This document shows positions 441-45,923 of a stretch of DNA of 64,000 bases, in pieces. How positions within the stretch are numbered: the stretch's first letter is position 1; each line of letters starts with the position of its first letter. The DNA is taken from the NCBI GenBank assembly GCA_902363675.1, contig CABJAV010000011.1:1-64000 (forward strand), written 5' to 3'. The notes beneath the pieces were generated by a model. It had not been told where the DNA came from and searched no databases. It was given only the letters and a program-made list of their open reading frames with translations. The DNA is from Lachnospiraceae bacterium. GTDB taxonomy: Bacteria > Bacillota > Clostridia > Lachnospirales > Lachnospiraceae. Both the position numbers and the translations under genes were made by a program.

Positions 441-469
441 TTGACATACTAGGAATACAAGGATATAAT
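441..469 (+). promoter_or_regulatory. Consensus sigma-A promoter of the sulfur amino acid transport operon
   Basis: TTGACA at 441-446, a 17-bp spacer, and TATAAT at 464-469. Both hexamers match the consensus exactly. Transcription should start near 476, about 25 bases before the leader peptide start codon. Confidence 0.9.
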
Positions 470-501
470 ACGAAACATGAAATGAAAGGAGACATGACAA
501 A

Positions 502-615
502 ATGAGAAATGTATTTACTTTGAACAACATGTGTATGTGCTGTCGAATGCTGGACTCCCAGGCGGATCATATGGCCGGGTGTAGGGCTCGTTTGTCATGC
601 ACCTGTTTGCAATAA
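502..615 (+). CDS. Cys/Met-rich leader peptide (37 aa)
   Basis: A short open frame with a good ribosome binding site (GAAAGGAG, 10 bases before ATG) lies between a perfect promoter and a terminator. It encodes 37 residues with six Cys (11, 13, 14, 27, 33, 35) and five Met, including the run MCMCCRM at residues 10-16. Such codon clustering is typical of attenuation leader peptides, where scarcity of the cognate charged tRNA stalls the ribosome. The downstream operon carries MetNI-type and cystine-like transporters, which fits Cys and Met as signals. The peptide itself probably has no function. It is not a known annotated family that I recognise. Confidence 0.7.
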   Translation: MRNVFTLNNMCMCCRMLDSQADHMAGCRARLSCTCLQ

Positions 616-670
616 TTTGTGATACAGATTAATGTAAGCCATTGCCTGGGAGAAACATCCAGGCTTTTTC
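550..670 (+). promoter_or_regulatory. Transcription attenuator: antiterminator and terminator
   Basis: The terminator stem is GCCTGG (644-649) with CCAGGC (659-664), followed by TTTTTC. Its left arm lies inside GCCTGGGAG (644-652), which is perfectly complementary over 9 bases to CTCCCAGGC at 555-563 inside the leader peptide gene. That segment starts 12 bases after the MCMCC codons (529-543). A ribosome stalled on these codons would melt the small local hairpin and leave 555-563 close to its edge, so that the antiterminator could form. Free translation would favour the terminator. The arrangement is read directly from the sequence; the mechanism is inferred by analogy with amino acid biosynthetic leaders. 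Confidence 0.7.
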
Positions 671-742: not shown

Positions 743-2401
743 ATGAAAAAGAATTTTTTGAAGAAGTTAGTAACTGGCGTTTTAGCAGCAACCTTAGGAG
801 TGACAGCTCTGGCAGGCTGCGGATCAGCCAAGACTGCTGATAAAGGTGATCAGGTTTATCGTACATTAGATGAAATCAAAGACAGTGGAGAAATCAATAT
901 CGGGGTTTTCTCTGACAAAAATCCATTTGGTTATGTAGATGACAACGGTGATTATCAGGGATATGATGTATACTTTGCAGAGCGCCTTGGAAAAGATCTT
1001 GGTGTAAAGATCAATTATGTATCCACAGAGGCTGCAAACCGTGTTGAGTACTTAGAGACTGGAAAGGTAGACATTGTCCTTGCAAACTTTACCGTAACAG
1101 ACGAGCGTGCAGAAAAAGTAGATTTTGCACTTCCATACATGAACGTAGCACTTGGTGTGGTATCCCATGAAGATAACGTAATCAAGAGTCTGGATGAAAT
1201 CGGAGCAGATGATCAGGTAATCGTAATTTCCGGAACTACTGCAGAGACTTATCTGGAAAAGAATGAGCCGGATATCAAACTTCAGAAGTTTGATACTTAC
1301 GCAGCTGCAAAGACGGCTTTCGAGAACGGAACCGGTGTTGCATGGGCAAACGATAACACAGAGGTTATTGCTTATGCGAAGGAGAATGAGGGTTATGTGG
1401 TAGGAATTTCTTCCCTTGGTGATCAGCAGAGCATTGCCCCGGCAGTAACAAAAGGCAACAGCACACTCCTTAACTGGATCAACGACGAGATCAAGAGCCT
1501 TGGAAAAGAAAACTTCTTCCATGCAGATTATGAAGCAACATTGCTTGACACATATGGTGCAGACTATGAAGATACTCTGGTAATCGAAGGTGGCGGAGAC
1601 GCAGCAGACAAAACAGATACAGAAGCAACAACAGAGGAAGGTAAATTAGACATTACACCAGGAAATGGAGAAACCATTAAAGTAGCAGCATCTCCAATTC
1701 CACATGCAGAAATTTTAGCAAAAGCAGCAGATATTTTAAAAGATTATGGATATGACCTTGAAGTAACGGAATTTGATGATTATGTGCAGCCAAACCTTGT
1801 TGTAGAATCTGGCGAATTTGATGCAAATTATGTAGAGCATTTACCATACTTAAACAGCTTTAACGAGGAGCAGGGAACACACCTTGTAGATGCCGGTGAC
1901 ATTCATTATGAGCCATTCGGTATTTATCCGGGAACCAAAAGCAAACTTGAGGATATTGCAGACGGAGACCACATTGCGATTCCAAACGACACAACCAACG
2001 AGGCAAGAGCATTACTGTTACTTCAGGACAATGGTCTGATCAAGTTAAAAGACGAAACAAGTCTTACCGCAACCGTAAATGATATTGCAGAGAATCCTCA
2101 TAATCTTCAGTTTGTAGAGCTTGAGGCAGCACAGGTTGCAAGAGTTGTAAACGAAGTTGAATTTGTAGTCTTAAACGGAAACTATGCACTTGAGGCAGGA
2201 TATTCTGTAGGAAAAGATGCCATCGCATATGAGGCAAATGATTCCATCGCAGCAAAGACTTATGTAAATATCATCGCTGTAAAGGAAGGAAATGAAAACA
2301 GCGGCAAGATCAAAGCACTTGTTTCGGTTCTCAGATCTGACGAGATTAAGAAATTTATTGATGATACTTATGACGGTGCAGTTATTTTCTACGAAAAATA
2401 A
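743..2401 (+). CDS. Double-headed ABC substrate-binding lipoprotein (SBP_bac_3 domain fused to MetQ/NlpA domain)
   Basis: 552 residues. A lipoprotein signal with lipobox LAGC (Cys about 26) is followed by two complete binding proteins. Residues ~45-285 are a family-3 amino acid binding domain (GVFSDKNPFGYVDDNGDYQG, then GYDVYFAERLGKDLG), closest in style to cysteine/cystine binders such as CjaA. An acidic, Thr/Glu-rich linker (~285-305) leads to residues ~308-552, an NlpA/MetQ methionine-type domain (VAASPIPHAEILAKAADIL, YVEHLPYLNSFNEE). Single-domain relatives are about 270 residues each, so this is a true fusion of two unrelated binding-protein families. The downstream operon has both matching permease types, so the protein probably feeds two transporters from one anchor. 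The start codon has an AGAAGGAG site. A hairpin just after the gene may raise its mRNA level. Confidence 0.9.
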   Translation: MKKNFLKKLVTGVLAATLGVTALAGCGSAKTADKGDQVYRTLDEIKDSGEINIGVFSDKNPFGYVDDNGDYQGYDVYFAERLGKDLGVKINYVSTEAANRVEYLETGKVDIVLANFTVTDERAEKVDFALPYMNVALGVVSHEDNVIKSLDEIGADDQVIVISGTTAETYLEKNEPDIKLQKFDTYAAAKTAFENGTGVAWANDNTEVIAYAKENEGYVVGISSLGDQQSIAPAVTKGNSTLLNWINDEIKSLGKENFFHADYEATLLDTYGADYEDTLVIEGGGDAADKTDTEATTEEGKLDITPGNGETIKVAASPIPHAEILAKAADILKDYGYDLEVTEFDDYVQPNLVVESGEFDANYVEHLPYLNSFNEEQGTHLVDAGDIHYEPFGIYPGTKSKLEDIADGDHIAIPNDTTNEARALLLLQDNGLIKLKDETSLTATVNDIAENPHNLQFVELEAAQVARVVNEVEFVVLNGNYALEAGYSVGKDAIAYEANDSIAAKTYVNIIAVKEGNENSGKIKALVSVLRSDEIKKFIDDTYDGAVIFYEK

Positions 2402-2412
2402 ACATGGAAAGG

Positions 2413-2437
2413 AAAGGAGGGGGTAAAGCCCTCCTTT
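2413..2437 (+). other. Intergenic RNA hairpin after the binding-protein gene
   Basis: Perfect 9-bp stem AAAGGAGGG (2413-2421) / CCCTCCTTT (2429-2437) with a 7-base loop and no T-tract. It lies between the binding-protein gene and metN. Such stems protect the upstream mRNA end, giving more binding protein than transporter. The stem also contains an AGGAGG, so it could hide a ribosome binding site. Confidence 0.55.
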
Positions 2438-2452
2438 GTCACTGGTGAAAAG

Positions 2453-3466
2453 ATGAGCGAAATTGAAATTAGAAATCTGACAAAAACATTTGATATAAAA
2501 GGGCGCACGGTTCACGCATTAAAAAATATCAGTCTTTCTATCGAGCAGGGCGATATTTTCGGAATTATCGGAATGTCCGGAGCTGGAAAAAGTACGCTGG
2601 TGCGATCCATCAATTATCTGGAGAAACCAACGGAAGGACAGGTTTTGATTGATGGGGTGGATCTGGCAGATCTGACAGAGAAGCAGCTTCGCAAAAAGCG
2701 CAGCGATATCGGCATGATCTTTCAAAATTTCAATCTTCTGGAGCAGAAAAATGTTCTGGATAATATCTGTTTTCCACTTGAGATTGCCGGGGTTAAAAAG
2801 AAAGAGGCAAGAAAACGCGCCGAAGAACTTTTAAAGACGGTTAATCTGGAGGAAAAGGCAAAAGCGTATCCATCACAGTTGTCCGGTGGACAGAAGCAGC
2901 GTGTCGCTATCGCGCGTGCACTGGCTACCAATCCGAAGATTCTGCTGTGTGATGAGGCAACGAGCGCACTTGATCCACAGACGACAGCCGCAATCTTAAA
3001 ACTCTTAAAAGAGATCAATGAAACACTGGGAATTACCATTATTATTATTACGCATCAGATGTCAGTTGTTACAGAAATCTGTAAGCGTGTGGCAATCATA
3101 GACAGTGGAAATCTTGTAGAAGAGGGATTGGTTGAAAAGATTTTTGAAAATCCACAGTCTGACGCAGCGAAAGAATTGATATCCGGTAAAGCCATTCGTT
3201 ATACGCCGGTTGAGAATCTGGATGTAGAACGAAAGATTCGAATTGTATTTCAGGAAAATTCCGCATTTGAGCCAGTGATCTCGAATATTATTTTACAATA
3301 CCAGGTGCCGGTCAATATTTTGAAGGCAGATACCAGGAATGTAAGCGGAAAAGCCGTTGGTGAGATGATCCTTGGCTTGCCGACAGGAAAAGAAACACAG
3401 GATGAAATTATCGCTCATCTGAGAGAGCGTGGGTTAATAGTGACGGAGGTGACAGAAAATGTTTGA
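2453..3466 (+). CDS. metN: Methionine ABC transporter ATP-binding protein MetN
   Basis: 337 residues, the usual MetN length. The ATPase domain (1-240) has Walker A GMSGAGKST, signature LSGGQKQR and Walker B ILLCDEATSALD. The last ~75 residues form the NIL/ACT-like domain that in MetN binds methionine and shuts transport when the cell is replete (RIVFQENSAFEPVISNIIL to the end). It works with MetI in the cytoplasmic membrane and probably with the NlpA-type half of the upstream fused binding protein. Its ribosome binding site is weak (GGTGAAAAG), which fits lower expression than the binding protein. It overlaps metI by 8 bases. Confidence 0.92.
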   Translation: MSEIEIRNLTKTFDIKGRTVHALKNISLSIEQGDIFGIIGMSGAGKSTLVRSINYLEKPTEGQVLIDGVDLADLTEKQLRKKRSDIGMIFQNFNLLEQKNVLDNICFPLEIAGVKKKEARKRAEELLKTVNLEEKAKAYPSQLSGGQKQRVAIARALATNPKILLCDEATSALDPQTTAAILKLLKEINETLGITIIIITHQMSVVTEICKRVAIIDSGNLVEEGLVEKIFENPQSDAAKELISGKAIRYTPVENLDVERKIRIVFQENSAFEPVISNIILQYQVPVNILKADTRNVSGKAVGEMILGLPTGKETQDEIIAHLRERGLIVTEVTENV

Positions 3467-4121
3467 TAAACAAGTAATACAAATGATTGCAGAAGGTATT
3501 CGTGACACATTGTATATGACACTGTTTTCGACTATTATAGGATATGTGATCGGATTACCGTTCGGCGTGCTGCTTCACGTCACAAGTGAAAAGGGACTGC
3601 ATCCGAACCGGATCATTTACCGGATCGGAGATTTTATCTGTAATATCATTCGAAGCATTCCGTTCCTGATTCTGTTGATCCTGCTGATTCCATTCACACG
3701 ACTCATTGTAGGAAAAAGCTATGGTTCGACTGCAACTATCGTGCCGCTTGTTATCTGTGCAGCACCATACATTGCAAGGGTCGTAGAATCCTCTTTAAAT
3801 GAAGTGGATGCTGGTGTCATCGAGGCGGCAAAAGCCATGGGCGCAAGCAATATGCAGATTATTTTTAAGGTACTTCTTGTGGAGGCAAGAACTTCACTGA
3901 TCAATGGAGCAACCATCACAACCGGACTGCTCCTTGGATATTCAGCAATGTCAGGAACCGTCGGTGGAGGCGGACTTGGAGATATTGCAGTACGATATGG
4001 TTATTATCGTTGGCAGACCGATATCATGATTGTTACGGTCGTGCTGCTGATTGTTATTTTCCAGATTATCCAGAATCTCGGAACAAGGTTGTCCGGCCGA
4101 TTAGATCATAGAAAGCGTTAG
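3459..4121 (+). CDS. metI: Methionine ABC transporter permease MetI
   Basis: 220 residues with about five membrane segments. It has the EAA loop that contacts the ATPase (EAAKAMGASNMQIIFKVLL) and the MetI hallmark SAMSGTVGGGGLGDIAVRYG. Start ATG 3459 lies within the end of metN and has a strong GGAGGTGA site 6 bases upstream, implying translational coupling. With MetN and the NlpA-type binding domain it forms a complete D/L-methionine importer. Confidence 0.92.
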   Translation: MFDKQVIQMIAEGIRDTLYMTLFSTIIGYVIGLPFGVLLHVTSEKGLHPNRIIYRIGDFICNIIRSIPFLILLILLIPFTRLIVGKSYGSTATIVPLVICAAPYIARVVESSLNEVDAGVIEAAKAMGASNMQIIFKVLLVEARTSLINGATITTGLLLGYSAMSGTVGGGGLGDIAVRYGYYRWQTDIMIVTVVLLIVIFQIIQNLGTRLSGRLDHRKR

Positions 4122-4132
4122 GATGCGATAGC

Positions 4133-4792
4133 ATGAATTTTGATGTAATATTTAATTATATGCCGATGTATACAAAGGCATTCTTGTTGACAATAAAGAT
4201 AGGATGGATAGGAATTGCACTTTCAATCGGAATTGGAATTGTTGTAGCTTTTATTCTGCATTTTAAGATTCCGGTTCTGTCACAGATTGTTAAAGTGTAC
4301 GTGGAATTGTTCCGCAATACGCCGCTTCTGGTGCAGTTATTTTTTATCTATTTTGGACTTCCGAAGATTGGTCTTTCCATATCCGCAGAAGTATGCGGAG
4401 CCGTGGGATTAGGCCTTCTGGGTGGAAGTTATATGGCAGAGAGTTTCCGAAGCGGACTGGAGGCCGTGCCGCTTTCGCAGACGGAATCTGCGCTGGCATT
4501 GGGAATGAACCGGCTGCAGATGTTTGGATCGGTAATTCTTCCGCAGGCTTTTTCTATCAGTGTACCGGCAATTGTGGCGAATATCATCTTTCTGCTGAAA
4601 GAAACCAGTGTATTTTCTGCAATCAGTCTGATGGATCTCATGTTTACTGCAAAAGACCTGATTGGACAGTATTATAATACAACGGAATGTCTGTTTATGC
4701 TTGTTGGATTCTATATTGTCATGCTGCTTCCGGTATCTATTTTAGGAAGTCTGGTCGAGCATAAAGCAAGATATCGTATGTTTGGAGATTAA
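4133..4792 (+). CDS. Polar amino acid ABC transporter permease (HisM/GlnP family), first subunit
   Basis: 219 residues, about five membrane helices. The family signature VELFRNTPLLVQLFFIYFG and an EAA loop (ESALALGMNRLQMFGSVILP) place it in the HisMQ/GlnP permease family, not MetI. It begins 12 bases after metI. The next gene is a second permease of the same family, so the two probably form a heterodimer, as in HisQ/HisM. The likely partner binding domain is the family-3 half of the fused lipoprotein, and cystine/cysteine is a reasonable guess for the substrate. The ribosome binding site (AGGA) is weak. Confidence 0.88.
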   Translation: MNFDVIFNYMPMYTKAFLLTIKIGWIGIALSIGIGIVVAFILHFKIPVLSQIVKVYVELFRNTPLLVQLFFIYFGLPKIGLSISAEVCGAVGLGLLGGSYMAESFRSGLEAVPLSQTESALALGMNRLQMFGSVILPQAFSISVPAIVANIIFLLKETSVFSAISLMDLMFTAKDLIGQYYNTTECLFMLVGFYIVMLLPVSILGSLVEHKARYRMFGD

Positions 4793-4796
4793 TGAG

Positions 4797-5465
4797 ATGG
4801 GATTTGAAATTTTACTAAAAGGAAATAATATGATCCGGCTTTTGCAAGGACTCTGGGTGGCACTTCGAATCAGCTTGATCTCTGTTGTGCTCAGCATGGT
4901 GCTTGGAATTTTACTTGGAATGCTTATGACATCAAAGAACAAAGCCGTTCAGGTGATCACAAGAATTTATCTGGAGATTGTGCGCATCATGCCACAGCTC
5001 GTACTTTTGTTCATTGTGTATTTTGGAGCAACCAAAGCGATGGGCATCAATATGTCGGCAGAGACTGCGTCCATCATTGTTTTTGTATTCTGGGGAACTG
5101 CAGAGATGGCAGATCTGGTCAGAGGTTCTCTGATCAGCATTCCAAAGATTCAGTATGAAAGCAGTGAGTCACTTGGCCTTAGCCGCGGACAGACATATCA
5201 GTATGTGATCATTCCGCAGATCATTCGAAGAATGATTCCACTTTCCATCAACCTGATCACCCGTATGATCAAGACAACGAGCCTTGTCATGATGATTGGA
5301 ATTGTGGAAGTGTTAAAAGTGGGACAGCAGATTATAGAGGCAAACCGAAAGACCGCTCCAAATGCTGCGTTTGCTATATTTGCAACGGTCCTTCTTTTAT
5401 ATTTTATTGCCTGCTGGCCGATAAGCTGCCTTTCAAAATATCTTGAAAAACGATGGGAGAACTGA
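4797..5465 (+). CDS. Polar amino acid ABC transporter permease (HisM/GlnP family), second subunit
   Basis: 222 residues from ATG 4797, chosen because GGAG sits 9 bases upstream. A TTG at 4782 would add five residues and overlap the previous gene. It has the family motif EIVRIMPQLVLLFIVYFGA and an EAA loop (YESSESLGLSRGQTYQYVII). It pairs with the preceding permease. The two proteins are related but clearly different, consistent with an old duplication giving a heterodimeric channel. Confidence 0.87.
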   Translation: MGFEILLKGNNMIRLLQGLWVALRISLISVVLSMVLGILLGMLMTSKNKAVQVITRIYLEIVRIMPQLVLLFIVYFGATKAMGINMSAETASIIVFVFWGTAEMADLVRGSLISIPKIQYESSESLGLSRGQTYQYVIIPQIIRRMIPLSINLITRMIKTTSLVMMIGIVEVLKVGQQIIEANRKTAPNAAFAIFATVLLLYFIACWPISCLSKYLEKRWEN

Positions 5466-5466
5466 T

Positions 5467-6237
5467 ATGGACGAAATATTGCGCATCAAAAATTTAAGCA
5501 AACGATATGACGATATAAGTGTTTTGGAAAACATAGATCTTTCTGTGAAAAAGGGAGAAGTGGTCGTGATTGTCGGACCATCCGGCTGTGGAAAAAGTAC
5601 TTTGCTCCGCTGTCTGAATGGATTAGAGGAGATCCAGGAGGGAGAGGTTTGGCTTGATGACGAGGTCGTGAATCCAAACAAGAAGAACTTAAGCAAAAAC
5701 AGGGAAAAAATCGGCATGGTATTCCAGAGTTATGACCTCTTTCCGCATCTGACAATTCTGCAGAATGTGACACTTGCACCGATCAAGGTCAAAAAAAGAA
5801 AACGTACGGAAGTGGAGAAAGAGGCGCTTGAACTGTTAGAGCGCGTAGGTCTGGTCTCCAAGAAGGATACTTATCCAAGACAGCTTTCCGGTGGACAAAA
5901 GCAGAGAGTTGCTATCGTGCGTGCACTGATCATGCACCCGGAGGTGCTGCTTCTTGACGAGATTACCGCAGCACTGGACCCGGAGATGGTGCGGGAGGTT
6001 CTCGACGTTGTGCTGGCTTTGGCACAGGAGGGAAGAACCATGGTCATTGTCACACATGAGATGCAGTTTGCCAAAGCGGTAGCAGACCGTATGGTATTCC
6101 TTGAGGGCGGAAAAATCGTGGAAGAGGGAAATCCAAAAGAGTTTTTTGAAGATCCGAAAACAGACCGACTCCGGAAGTTTTTACAGACTTTTACTTATGA
6201 AAAAGGTGGAGAAGCCGGTGTGTTAGTAAAACGCTAG
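5467..6237 (+). CDS. Polar amino acid ABC transporter ATP-binding protein (GlnQ/HisP family)
   Basis: 256 residues from ATG 5467, with GGGAGA 7 bases upstream. An in-frame ATG at 5443 inside the previous gene is less likely. Walker A GPSGCGKST, signature LSGGQKQRVAI and Walker B VLLLDEITAALDPE are intact. It lacks the C-terminal NIL domain of MetN, so it belongs with the two HisM-type permeases. It is the last gene of the operon. Its 3' end overlaps the convergent Nudix gene by 15 bases. Confidence 0.9.
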   Translation: MDEILRIKNLSKRYDDISVLENIDLSVKKGEVVVIVGPSGCGKSTLLRCLNGLEEIQEGEVWLDDEVVNPNKKNLSKNREKIGMVFQSYDLFPHLTILQNVTLAPIKVKKRKRTEVEKEALELLERVGLVSKKDTYPRQLSGGQKQRVAIVRALIMHPEVLLLDEITAALDPEMVREVLDVVLALAQEGRTMVIVTHEMQFAKAVADRMVFLEGGKIVEEGNPKEFFEDPKTDRLRKFLQTFTYEKGGEAGVLVKR

Positions 6238-18112: not shown

Positions 18113-18169
18113 AGCAAAAGAAAATATAGTTCACCAAAATTCGTTGATGAGAACAAAATCATAGCTATG

Positions 18170-18402
18170 ATTATTTGCAGAGAGTCTGTGGCTGGTGCGA
18201 ACAGACAATAATCGGATATTGATTATCCTCTCTAAGAAGCGGGCTGAAAGCAGTTAGTTGTAAGTAAACTTCGCCGGTCTCCTCCGTTATGGGATAGCAT
18301 ATGTTGGTATGTGAAGTGTCACAGAGATTTTCTGTGGAATTAGGGTGGTATCGCGGATTTTATTCGTCCCTTTCCAGTTTATTCTGGGAAGGGACTTTTT
18401 TG
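18170..18402 (+). promoter_or_regulatory. T-box leader (tRNA-sensing riboswitch) with terminator
   Basis: The T-box sequence AATTAGGGTGGTATCGCGG (near 18338-18356) precedes a terminator whose arms are GTCCC...GGGAC with TTTTTT (18366-18402). Upstream are the Stem I base (AGAGAG at 18179-18184 with CTCTCT at 18227-18232), a GGTGCGA apical loop, and the CCGTTA segment usual before stem III. The bases just before CTCTCT (GATATTGATTATC) should contain the specifier codon. I cannot fix the register, so the amino acid is not assigned; Ile codons are among the possibilities. It controls the downstream transporter gene. Confidence 0.85.
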
Positions 18403-18424: not shown

Positions 18425-19426
18425 ATGAAAGCATTACAAAAATTCAGTAAATTTTTATCGGATTACACATCTGTGGTGGTAATAGCCATTGCGATTGTAA
18501 CATTTATCGTTCCGGGCATGATGGGATGGGTAAACTATCAATTGTTTACGGATCCGGTTTCTAACAAGTTTACCTGTCAATCCATCATTATCGGTGTAAT
18601 TATGTTTAGTATGGGACTGACTTTGACTACAGAAGATTTTAAGATTCTGGCACAGAGACCATTTGATATTTGTGTAGGTGCATTGGCACAGTATCTGATT
18701 ATGCCGTTTCTGGCGTTTGCATTGACAAAGGCATTGCACCTTCCGGATGGCATTGCCCTTGGATTAATTCTGGTAGGATGTTGCCCGGGTGGTGTGTCAT
18801 CCAACATCATGTCCTATCTTTGTGGCGGGGATGTGGCTTTTTCTGTAGGAATGACAACAGTATCAACAATTCTTTCTCCGATTATGACACCGCTTATGGT
18901 TTCTCTGTTGGCGAGCGGAGCAAATATTTCCATCAAGGCGTTGCCAATGTTGATTTCCATTGTTGAAACCGTGATTCTTCCGGTTGCGCTTGGATTTCTT
19001 CTGAATTATTTGCTCGGCAAAAAGAAAACCTTTAGCGAGATACAGAAAGTAATGCCAGGAGTTGCGGTATTAGGATTGGCTTGTGTTGTAGGTGGTGTTG
19101 TTTCCTCACAGGGCGATAAATTCTTCCAGTCAGGTGCTGTCATTTTCATTGCGGTATTTCTTCATAATGGGCTGGGTTATCTGCTTGGTTATGGTGCAGG
19201 AAAGCTTGTTGGCATGAACACAGCAAAGAAGAGAACAATTGCTATCGAAGTTGGTATGCAGAATGCTGGATTGGCAACAAATCTTGCCACAACAACCGCG
19301 CAGTTTTCTGCAACACCGGAATCCGCTATCATCTGTGCTGTTTCCTGTACCTGGCATTCTATTTCAGGAACATTGCTTGCCGGCATGTTTGCCGCTTATG
19401 ATAAACATAAGAAAAAACAACAATAA
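18425..19426 (+). CDS. BASS family sodium-dependent transporter (bile acid:sodium symporter superfamily)
   Basis: 333 residues, about ten membrane helices. Family motifs include IMFSMGLTLTTEDFK, GCCPGGVSSNIMSYLCGGDVA (the substrate/sodium crossover region) and EVGMQNAGLATNLA. Bacterial members carry organic acids, including 2-keto acids and pantothenate precursors, not necessarily bile acids. Control by a T-box is informative: uptake or export rises when a specific tRNA is uncharged, so the substrate is likely tied to one amino acid, perhaps as its keto acid. The start has AAGGAGG. Confidence 0.9.
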   Translation: MKALQKFSKFLSDYTSVVVIAIAIVTFIVPGMMGWVNYQLFTDPVSNKFTCQSIIIGVIMFSMGLTLTTEDFKILAQRPFDICVGALAQYLIMPFLAFALTKALHLPDGIALGLILVGCCPGGVSSNIMSYLCGGDVAFSVGMTTVSTILSPIMTPLMVSLLASGANISIKALPMLISIVETVILPVALGFLLNYLLGKKKTFSEIQKVMPGVAVLGLACVVGGVVSSQGDKFFQSGAVIFIAVFLHNGLGYLLGYGAGKLVGMNTAKKRTIAIEVGMQNAGLATNLATTTAQFSATPESAIICAVSCTWHSISGTLLAGMFAAYDKHKKKQQ

Positions 19427-31415: not shown

Positions 31416-31436
31416 AGGGAAAGTTTCATAGGGAAG

Positions 31437-31640
31437 ATAGTTGGTGTCAGTTGAGACACATCTTAAGATGTGTCTCAACTGGTGAAAAGGGAAACAGGTG
31501 CAATTCCTGTACGATCTCGTCACTGTGATTAGGGAGTACACTTCCAAGAGGCGCACTGAACAATGTTTTGTTTGGGAAGGCGGAAGTGATGCGAGGATCT
31601 ATCAGCCAGGAGACCTGCCAATTATCTGGTACAGCACTCT
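31437..31640 (+). promoter_or_regulatory. Cobalamin riboswitch
   Basis: The class hallmarks occur in order: AAAAGGGAAACAGGTGCAAT near 31484, CTGTACGATCTCGTCACTGTGA, GGGAAGGCGGAAGTGATGCGAG, and the B12 box AGCCAGGAGACCTGCC (31605-31620). A clean leading hairpin GAGACACATCTTAAGATGTGTCTC lies at 31452-31475 (arms GAGACACATC/GATGTGTCTC). It should reduce expression of the following CbiK/ABC operon when adenosylcobalamin or a related corrinoid is plentiful. The loop that pairs with L5 is not resolved here. Confidence 0.93.
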
Positions 31641-45792: not shown

Positions 45793-45828
45793 ACAAAAAA
45801 AGTTGCAATGAAATTGATTCATTGCAAC
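45793..45828 (-). terminator. Riboswitch-linked terminator (minus strand)
   Basis: On the minus strand GTTGCAATGAA pairs with TTCATTGCAAC (11 bp), followed by TTTTTTTG. It begins inside the 3' end of the riboswitch aptamer, a typical on/off expression platform. Confidence 0.8.
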
Positions 45829-45906
45829 CGAACTATCTTAGTAACATAAATTGTACCGTAGACTTCTAGCTTTGCGCCATTACATTTCTGCAACTTTGCC
45901 TTTGAA
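45823..45906 (-). promoter_or_regulatory. GEMM-I riboswitch (cyclic-di-GMP type)
   Basis: Read on the minus strand: AAAGGCAAAG, a 6-bp hairpin GTTGCA-GAAA-TGTAAT with a GNRA tetraloop, the conserved GGCGCAAAGCTA, GTCTACGGTA, a short stem around AATTTATG, and TACTAAGATAG with the closing GTTCGGTTGC. These correspond in order to the GEMM-I aptamer (GGCAAA, GAAA tetraloop, GACGCAAAGC, tetraloop receptor). The base at the ligand-pairing G20 position appears to be G, which favours c-di-GMP over cGAMP, but my alignment there is uncertain. The overlapping terminator makes transcription control likely. Confidence 0.75.
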
Positions 45907-45923
45907 ATTTAATAACGAAACAA

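Follow-up and report, generated by a model that had tools for sequence, protein, structure and literature searches.

The question raised by this locus is which signal controls transcription of a transport operon (743-6237), predicted from domain matches, and by which means. The window, i.e. the whole stretch analysed, comprises 64,000 nt of a Lachnospiraceae bacterium contig (CABJAV010000011.1). The first protein of the operon, a lipoprotein of 552 aa, carries two substrate-binding domains of different families in one chain; three permeases and two ATPases are encoded by the other genes. Matches to NCBIfam models for a cystine-binding protein and for MetQ/MetN within the operon are all below the curated cut-offs, so that the transporter substrate (cystine, methionine or both) can only be proposed.

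The initial annotation had placed upstream of this operon a 37-codon leader gene with six Cys and five Met codons, clustered as MCMCC, between a perfect promoter and a terminator. This was confirmed from the sequence: the promoter matches the consensus at 12 of 12 positions and the leader product, MRNVFTLNNMCMCCRMLDSQADHMAGCRARLSCTCLQ, contains 6 Cys and 5 Met including the start. The exact complementarity of CTCCCAGGC (555-563, strand A) to GCCTGGGAG (644-652), which includes the left arm of the terminator, was also found as described. The terminator stem (644-664), followed by TTTTT, folds at -9.7 kcal/mol (z -3.3). In the window leader, the only one used for these controls, none of 5000 dinucleotide shuffles produced an exact complement of 644-652; 140 of the 5000 had three Cys in a stretch of four codons and 165 had six or more Cys, so that the number of Cys by itself is only moderately improbable. 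The case rests on complementarity and conservation and not on Cys content. A chance ORF followed by a constitutive partial terminator could account for the six Cys, as judged by the 165 shuffles, but this explanation is contradicted by the conservation, frame and covariation described below and is barely credible. The range proposed initially, 476-670, proved adequate for the element, although a second antiterminator helix (571-575/638-642) and a hairpin at 577-604 had been missed (Table 1).

Table 1. Features of the leader region and operon, in window coordinates
Feature	Position	Strand	Evidence
Sigma-70 type promoter, TTGACA-17-TATAAT	441-469	+	12/12 consensus match; promoter function predicted
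Shine-Dalgarno (SD) of leader ORF, AAAGGAG	485-491	+	Sequence; ATG at SD spacing in Cys-run frame in 102/105 leaders
Leader start region, CATGACAAAATGAG	493-506	+	Complementary to loop 587-599; 82% of cells paired, weak covariation
Leader peptide ORF, 37 codons	502-615	+	Sequence, conservation, frame
Control codons ATG TGT ATG TGC TGT (MCMCC)	529-543	+	Ribosome position scans
Boundary codon, last TGT of run	541-543	+	Cys in 104/118 leaders
CGA ATG directly after Cys run, nearly invariant	544-549	+	CGAATG in 113/118
Antiterminator 5' strand A, CTCCCAGGC	555-563	+	Pairs with 644-652; covariation
Antiterminator 5' strand, second helix, ATGGC	571-575	+	Pairs with 638-642; covariation
Segment B, GCCGGG	574-579	+	Alternatives: pairs with A (557-563) or opens B:C hairpin
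B:C hairpin, GGGTGT:GCACCT	577-604	+	Covariation; folding energy
Antiterminator 3' strand, second helix, GCCAT	638-642	+	Covariation
Antiterminator 3' strand, GCCTGGGAG, includes terminator left arm	644-652	+	Covariation
Intrinsic terminator, GCCTGG/CCAGGC + T run	644-669	+	Sequence, conservation, folding energy
Fused substrate-binding lipoprotein (SBP_bac_3 + NlpA/MetQ), first gene of operon	743-2401	+	Pfam PF00497, PF03180
Remaining operon: MetN-type ATPase with NIL domain, three permeases, second ATPase	2453-6237	+	Pfam; NCBIfam (MetN-type ATPase, below cut-off)

The 552-aa protein was aligned with 21 relatives and then used to scan public genomes. At least 80 homologous loci, mostly titled Lachnospiraceae, were kept, 75 of the 80 with at least 300 nt upstream. 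Among the matches listed, 54 of these 75 loci have the leader in front of the homologous gene, with a typical peptide MCMCCRML-x-SQAxxMAGCLAHLSC and counterparts of strand A and its partner. The same layout thus recurs upstream of homologous operons, and the Cys codons and complementary segments, whose lack of conservation the initial annotation had named as counter-evidence, are both conserved. In three of the 54 leaders (L048, L065 and L071) no clear terminator arm was found by score. The other 21 loci have no leader or only a degenerate one (L024 and L066 look degenerate and were counted as lacking), and an Rfam search of 12 of these 21 gave no listed element.

A covariance model, R1, built from 49 leaders (alignment A3), gave a clear match in the window only for 532-682. 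R1 matches were found in 12 of the 15 genomes behind named loci, with up to four per genome, in 35 of 250 family-sample and 16 of 391 class-sample genomes (E up to 0.01; two of the 16, L141 and L142, carry no leader), and in 13 of 196 order-sample and 5 of 398 phylum-sample genomes (E up to 0.001), these samples sharing some genomes and including the centre genome, and strict filters losing weak matches. The falling rates would agree with a family that has its centre in Lachnospiraceae and extends somewhat beyond. We collected 118 leaders: the window, the 54 first-scan loci and a further 63 that came from genome searches. Some of them are near-identical, and the set is not fully independent. 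Excluded from this set were L066 (Cys run, diverged strand A), L024 (degenerate), L141 and L142 (E 0.001-0.002), and L144, L161 and L162 (no anchor by pattern); L072, cut by a contig end, was excluded from alignments and counts. The anchor of L140 is misplaced by three codons in pooled counts. Alignments A2 and A3 contain 50 of 56 collected and 49 of 51 listed sequences, respectively.

An ATG at normal SD spacing was found in 105 of the 118 leaders (13 gave none), and in 102 of these 105 its frame was that of the Cys run. By a looser test, 96 of 117 were in frame and 94 were open through to the Cys run, many of the misses resulting from an overlapping out-of-frame ATG at 494 and its equivalents. 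This ATG opens a three-codon out-of-frame ORF, ATGACAAAATGA (494-505), which overlaps the leader start codon, has equivalents in several relatives and is perhaps a by-product of the conserved CATGACAAATGAG element. In the 94 peptides Cys and Met account for 12.6% and 11.2% of residues, respectively, start excluded. Gaps within the run come in whole codons in the alignment. The boundary codon, at the switch point described below, is Cys in 104 of 118 leaders; Cys occupies one of the last two run codons in 112, and at least one Met is present within the last six in 110.

Covariation was examined on the 50 leaders of A2, with antiterminator columns 554-563 and 571-576 set against 637-642 and 644-653. 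The antiterminator was paired in 83% of cells, with double changes in 12 of 16 pairs and 60 double-changed cells compared to 31 +/- 5 in shuffles (0 of 500 reached 60) and at most 28 in slid versions. The second helix was paired in 69% of cells, with double changes in all 6 counted pairs. For the B:C hairpin (577-582/599-604) 21 double-changed cells were counted compared to 2.4 in shuffles; the segment 576-606 folds at -14.7 kcal/mol (z -3.7). The terminator was paired in 94% of cells and the alternative A:B pairing in 90%. Covariation of A:B was looked for in the aligned leaders and none was found, as might be the case when both strands also pair elsewhere. A hairpin after the stop codon showed covariation by cells (34 versus 15.1) and not by number of pairs. 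In the window, a ribosome on the last Cys of the run would leave 554-670 free; this segment adopts the antiterminator fold at -47.2 kcal/mol (z -4.6), a value equalled by 0 of 200 shuffles.

The leader start region (493-506) is complementary to the B:C loop, with 82% of cells paired over the 50 leaders compared to at most 43% when slid. Covariation is weak here, slid versions having as many double changes as the actual structure. In the set before substrate-binding proteins, complementarity was 17.7, above the 12.8 of shuffles and in only slight excess over 16.1 for mismatched leaders; in the other set own pairs gave 16.2, mismatched ones 13.5 and shuffled ones 13.1. Closure of the leader start by the B:C loop may occur.

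Such strongly conserved structure, with the free RNA predicted in one of two exclusive folds, could also belong to a riboswitch or T-box-like RNA that binds its ligand directly, the ORF being incidental. In T-boxes, tRNA binds the RNA directly, without translation. This alternative is very improbable in view of the start codon lying in the frame of the run and of the whole-codon gaps. The initial annotation had noted that these pathways are usually controlled by S-box, T-box or CymR in Firmicutes. Rfam, searched at E up to 5, gave no plus-strand family for 400-760, T-box and S-box included; the only hit was a chance match of the minus strand to a different family (15 bits, cut-off 88), and neither the T-box nor the SAM riboswitch (S-box) covariance model matched this segment.

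To locate the switch, a ribosome footprint covering -15 to +12 relative to the A site was placed codon by codon and pairing probabilities were calculated with ViennaRNA, which gives a thermodynamic and not a co-transcriptional picture. Scans were obtained for 52 of 55 leaders in a first set and 56 of 63 in a second, the rest having no clear terminator or partner. When the A site was placed at the final run codon, the probabilities of terminator and antiterminator averaged 0.32/0.66 (first set) and 0.24/0.66 (second set). One codon further they were 0.58/0.32 and 0.41/0.34, and two codons further 0.89/0.05 and 0.69/0.07, respectively. From +3 to +11 they stayed at 0.91-0.93/0.00 in the first set; in the second, the codons sampled between +3 and +10 gave about 0.70/0.00. 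The terminator was favoured even at the last codon of the run in 33% and 30% of leaders, respectively. The position of the switch follows partly from the assumed footprint: a three-nucleotide change in the leading edge of the footprint displaces the switch by one codon.

Ribosome-free RNA was predicted to favour the antiterminator (0.34/0.62 and 0.32/0.53), and an untranslated leader might therefore read through. A ribosome at the stop codon gave 0.61/0.33 and 0.43/0.42, and codons +14 to +17 leaned back to the antiterminator in the first set, as did +14 and +16 in the second. Since the antiterminator is favoured without a ribosome and at +14 to +17, termination in well-fed cells would need a ribosome on or near strand A while the terminator is made.

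Taken together, these results argue for ribosome-mediated transcription attenuation that reads charged cysteinyl-tRNA, a reading to which we give a probability of about 0.88 from sequence comparison. The attenuation geometry claimed initially is supported by conserved Cys codons and by pairing segments with compensatory changes. As expected of a leader-peptide attenuator, the locus combines an SD-led ORF, a control-codon run at the switch point (with Met mixed in), an exclusive antiterminator and terminator, and pathway genes downstream, the transporter substrate being a proposal. As judged by comparison of leaders, the ORF and its frame, the Cys run, antiterminator, B:C hairpin and terminator recur together, with fixed spacing, before cysteine or sulfur genes. 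RNA polymerase would start near 476, as predicted, and a ribosome would load at 502. With Cys-tRNA in short supply the ribosome would stall on the Cys run, its leading edge ending just before strand A. The freed strand could then pair with 638-652, while the hairpin 577-604 would occupy the competing GGG and may thereby exclude A:B pairing; the antiterminator would block the terminator and the transporter operon would be transcribed. With plentiful Cys-tRNA the ribosome would move over strand A, destroying the antiterminator, and A could pair with B after its passage; 644-652 would pair with 659-664 and transcription would stop before 743.

Directly after the run, the codon is CGA in 113 of 118 leaders, and CGAATG is likewise found in 113 of 118. 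Its spacing to strand A is kept in 108 of 118. CGA is rare in the downstream ORFs (41 of 1340 Arg codons, ~3%). We would guess that a slow codon such as CGA could help keep the ribosome near strand A. The nearly constant Arg-Met could alternatively indicate that a small molecule such as cysteine, and not starvation for Cys-tRNA, triggers arrest of the ribosome by the nascent peptide. Sensing by the peptide alone would, however, not require the Arg codon to be held at the rare CGA. The run varies in length and composition, and a stall two codons further is modelled to cover strand A, favouring termination. We thus regard arrest by the peptide as improbable.

A pairing partner for CGAAUG was searched by a fixed-offset scan of 89 leaders and none was convincing. 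Pairing with CAUUUG before the terminator, noticed by eye, was dropped since this partner varies while CGAAUG is constant; mimicry of a T-loop by UGUCGAAUG was discarded because several leaders have a different nucleotide in place of the U that precedes CGA. A second CGA beside a Cys codon was seen in many leaders of MetY and MetQ type (L093, L094, L096, L129, L136 and others), which end in Arg-Cys-stop (CGA TGT followed by TGA, TAA or TAG). In L111 and L117 a similar CGATGT is out of frame or outside the ORF, as judged by eye.

The downstream genes bear on which amino acid is sensed. The nearest reference-like ORF after the 118 leaders encodes a substrate-binding protein in 65 cases (55 by selection), a MetY-like PLP enzyme in 41, MetN in 3, a permease in 2 and other proteins in 7. 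Among the 63 leaders not picked by their downstream gene, these numbers are 10, 41, 3, 2 and 7, respectively. The MetY-like enzymes include 33 close relatives and 8 at 33-42% identity; that of L093 passes the cut-off of TIGR01326 (O-acetylhomoserine/O-acetylserine sulfhydrylase) and the distant one of L115 does not. Three of the 41 are found in another layout: L146 encodes a cystathionine gamma-lyase-like protein (567 bits, cut-off 594) and, next to it, a cysteine-synthase-like gene that is truncated where the locus ends, and L147 and L148 show the same arrangement by eye. The cystine transporter TcyP is a member of the SDF family, and an SDF-family symporter lies downstream of L092. Other downstream products are a truncated sulfopropanediol dehydratase match below cut-off (L121), a cyclase-family protein (L103), an HD-domain-like protein (L106, by eye), and, for L130, a cysteine-synthase-like fragment (by eye) with a weak match to glutamate-cysteine ligase after it. 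The proteins after the cysteine leaders of L110 and L119 are presumably glutathione-transferase-like; that of L119 had no Pfam match at 1e-10 and no NCBIfam match. Most targets belong to cysteine or sulfur metabolism.

The initial annotation had left the signal as cysteine and/or methionine. Several observations suggest that the signal is methionine, or methionine and cysteine to the same degree, and not chiefly cysteine. Met is interspersed in MCMCC and is common in transporter-type runs (mean over seven codons of 2.1 Met, compared to 3.7 Cys), the operon has MetQ- and MetN-type parts, and MetY can serve methionine synthesis too. Before MetN the boundary codon is Cys in 0 of 3 leaders. Against this stand the boundary codon, Cys in 104 of 118 leaders, the 33 leaders before close MetY relatives, which average 1.0 Met and 2.1 Cys, and targets such as the cystathionine lyase and cysK-like operons and the truncated sulfopropanediol dehydratase match. 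Sensing of methionine, or of both equally, is thus rather unlikely; targets and boundary codon favour cysteine, narrowing the earlier proposal in this direction, with methionine as a possible co-signal. In one leader before MetN (L140, at ~1500), Met-Met replaces Cys before CGA-AUG and the run contains no Cys; this single case is possibly a methionine-sensing version. A diverged Cys/Met-rich leader, CCCMCMC by eye, with a terminator was seen at ~1480-1650 of L144, before a gene which we take to be MetK-like.

Attenuation by leader peptides is classical, as in the trp and his types of enterobacteria. Branched-chain amino acid (BCAA) leader peptides are reported in Staphylococcus aureus and Listeria monocytogenes (PMC6123439). 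These BCAA attenuators, like those of trp and his, share with the present leader a short ORF with control codons, an exclusive antiterminator and terminator, and genes for the same amino acid downstream. The present leader differs in its amino acid, cysteine, in forming one homologous family before several operons, in its nearly fixed CGA-AUG, in a freed strand that begins at the edge of the stalled ribosome, and in a long codon tail after the switch point. Runs of Cys codons upstream of cysteine genes are known from mycobacterial polycysteine short ORFs, which are leaderless and described as translation attenuators (Canestrari 2020 as cited in PMC13236596), and from actinobacterial cys leaders, without terminators and with Cys runs near the stop codon (PMC1262725). 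Here, in contrast, the ORF is SD-led, the Cys run precedes an antiterminator and an intrinsic terminator follows. The ORF is not leaderless, with the SD (485-491) and the promoter (441-469) upstream of it and a predicted transcription start.

The uORFC-8-2 motif upstream of cysS in Rhodobacterales (PMC8632094) is predicted to act by ribosome-mediated attenuation, with tandem Cys codons and a terminator; it differs from the present leader in belonging to Alphaproteobacteria, in having two tandem Cys codons within the first stem, and in serving only cysS. In Clostridium, cysteine-specific T-boxes control termination for cystine uptake, cysK-cysE and Met-to-Cys conversion by response to cysteine (PMC2940859); they serve the same kinds of genes as the leader, which has no T-box on 400-760. 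This C. perfringens study states that genes lacking a T-box may be under control of another kind. In bacilli, leader peptides for histidine have been predicted with hisS-paralogue and hisZ genes (PMC2965389); they likewise represent leader-peptide attenuation in Firmicutes replacing T-boxes, for a different amino acid. Among the matches listed in the open literature, with subscription papers mostly outside its scope, no recognisable cysteine leader-peptide attenuator in Firmicutes was found, and Rfam 15 contains no matching family. The kind of mechanism is thus known and the cysteine leader family appears new.

The leader provides a concrete candidate for cysteine control in Lachnospiraceae and some relatives and predicts cysteine regulons comprising sulfhydrylase, cystathionine lyase with cysteine synthase, and cystine/Met-type uptake. 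The usual view of leader peptides is that each was built for its own operon; here a homologous family recurs before different operons, and its nearly invariant rare codon raises a testable question on ribosome timing. A broader and tentative reading, doubtful as a whole, is that of a spreading regulatory class, T-box-like in role. One homologous cysteine attenuator would have been placed before many cysteine-regulon operons, a slow CGA-AUG would park the well-fed ribosome on the antiterminator strand, and, with the start codon shut by the hairpin loop, each transcript would be read by a single ribosome.

Four attenuator-bearing genomes gave 18 T-box matches, 9 of them above the gathering score. 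The first ORFs after these T-boxes, assigned by eye, are presumably aminoacyl-tRNA synthetase, trp and other genes; no recognisable cysteine gene was found among the first ORFs after the 18 T-boxes, as judged by these names. Elsewhere in the window, a T-box is located at 18135-18374, before a 333-aa ORF at 18425, together with a cobalamin riboswitch at 31425-31636 and a c-di-GMP-I riboswitch at 45820-45910 on the minus strand.
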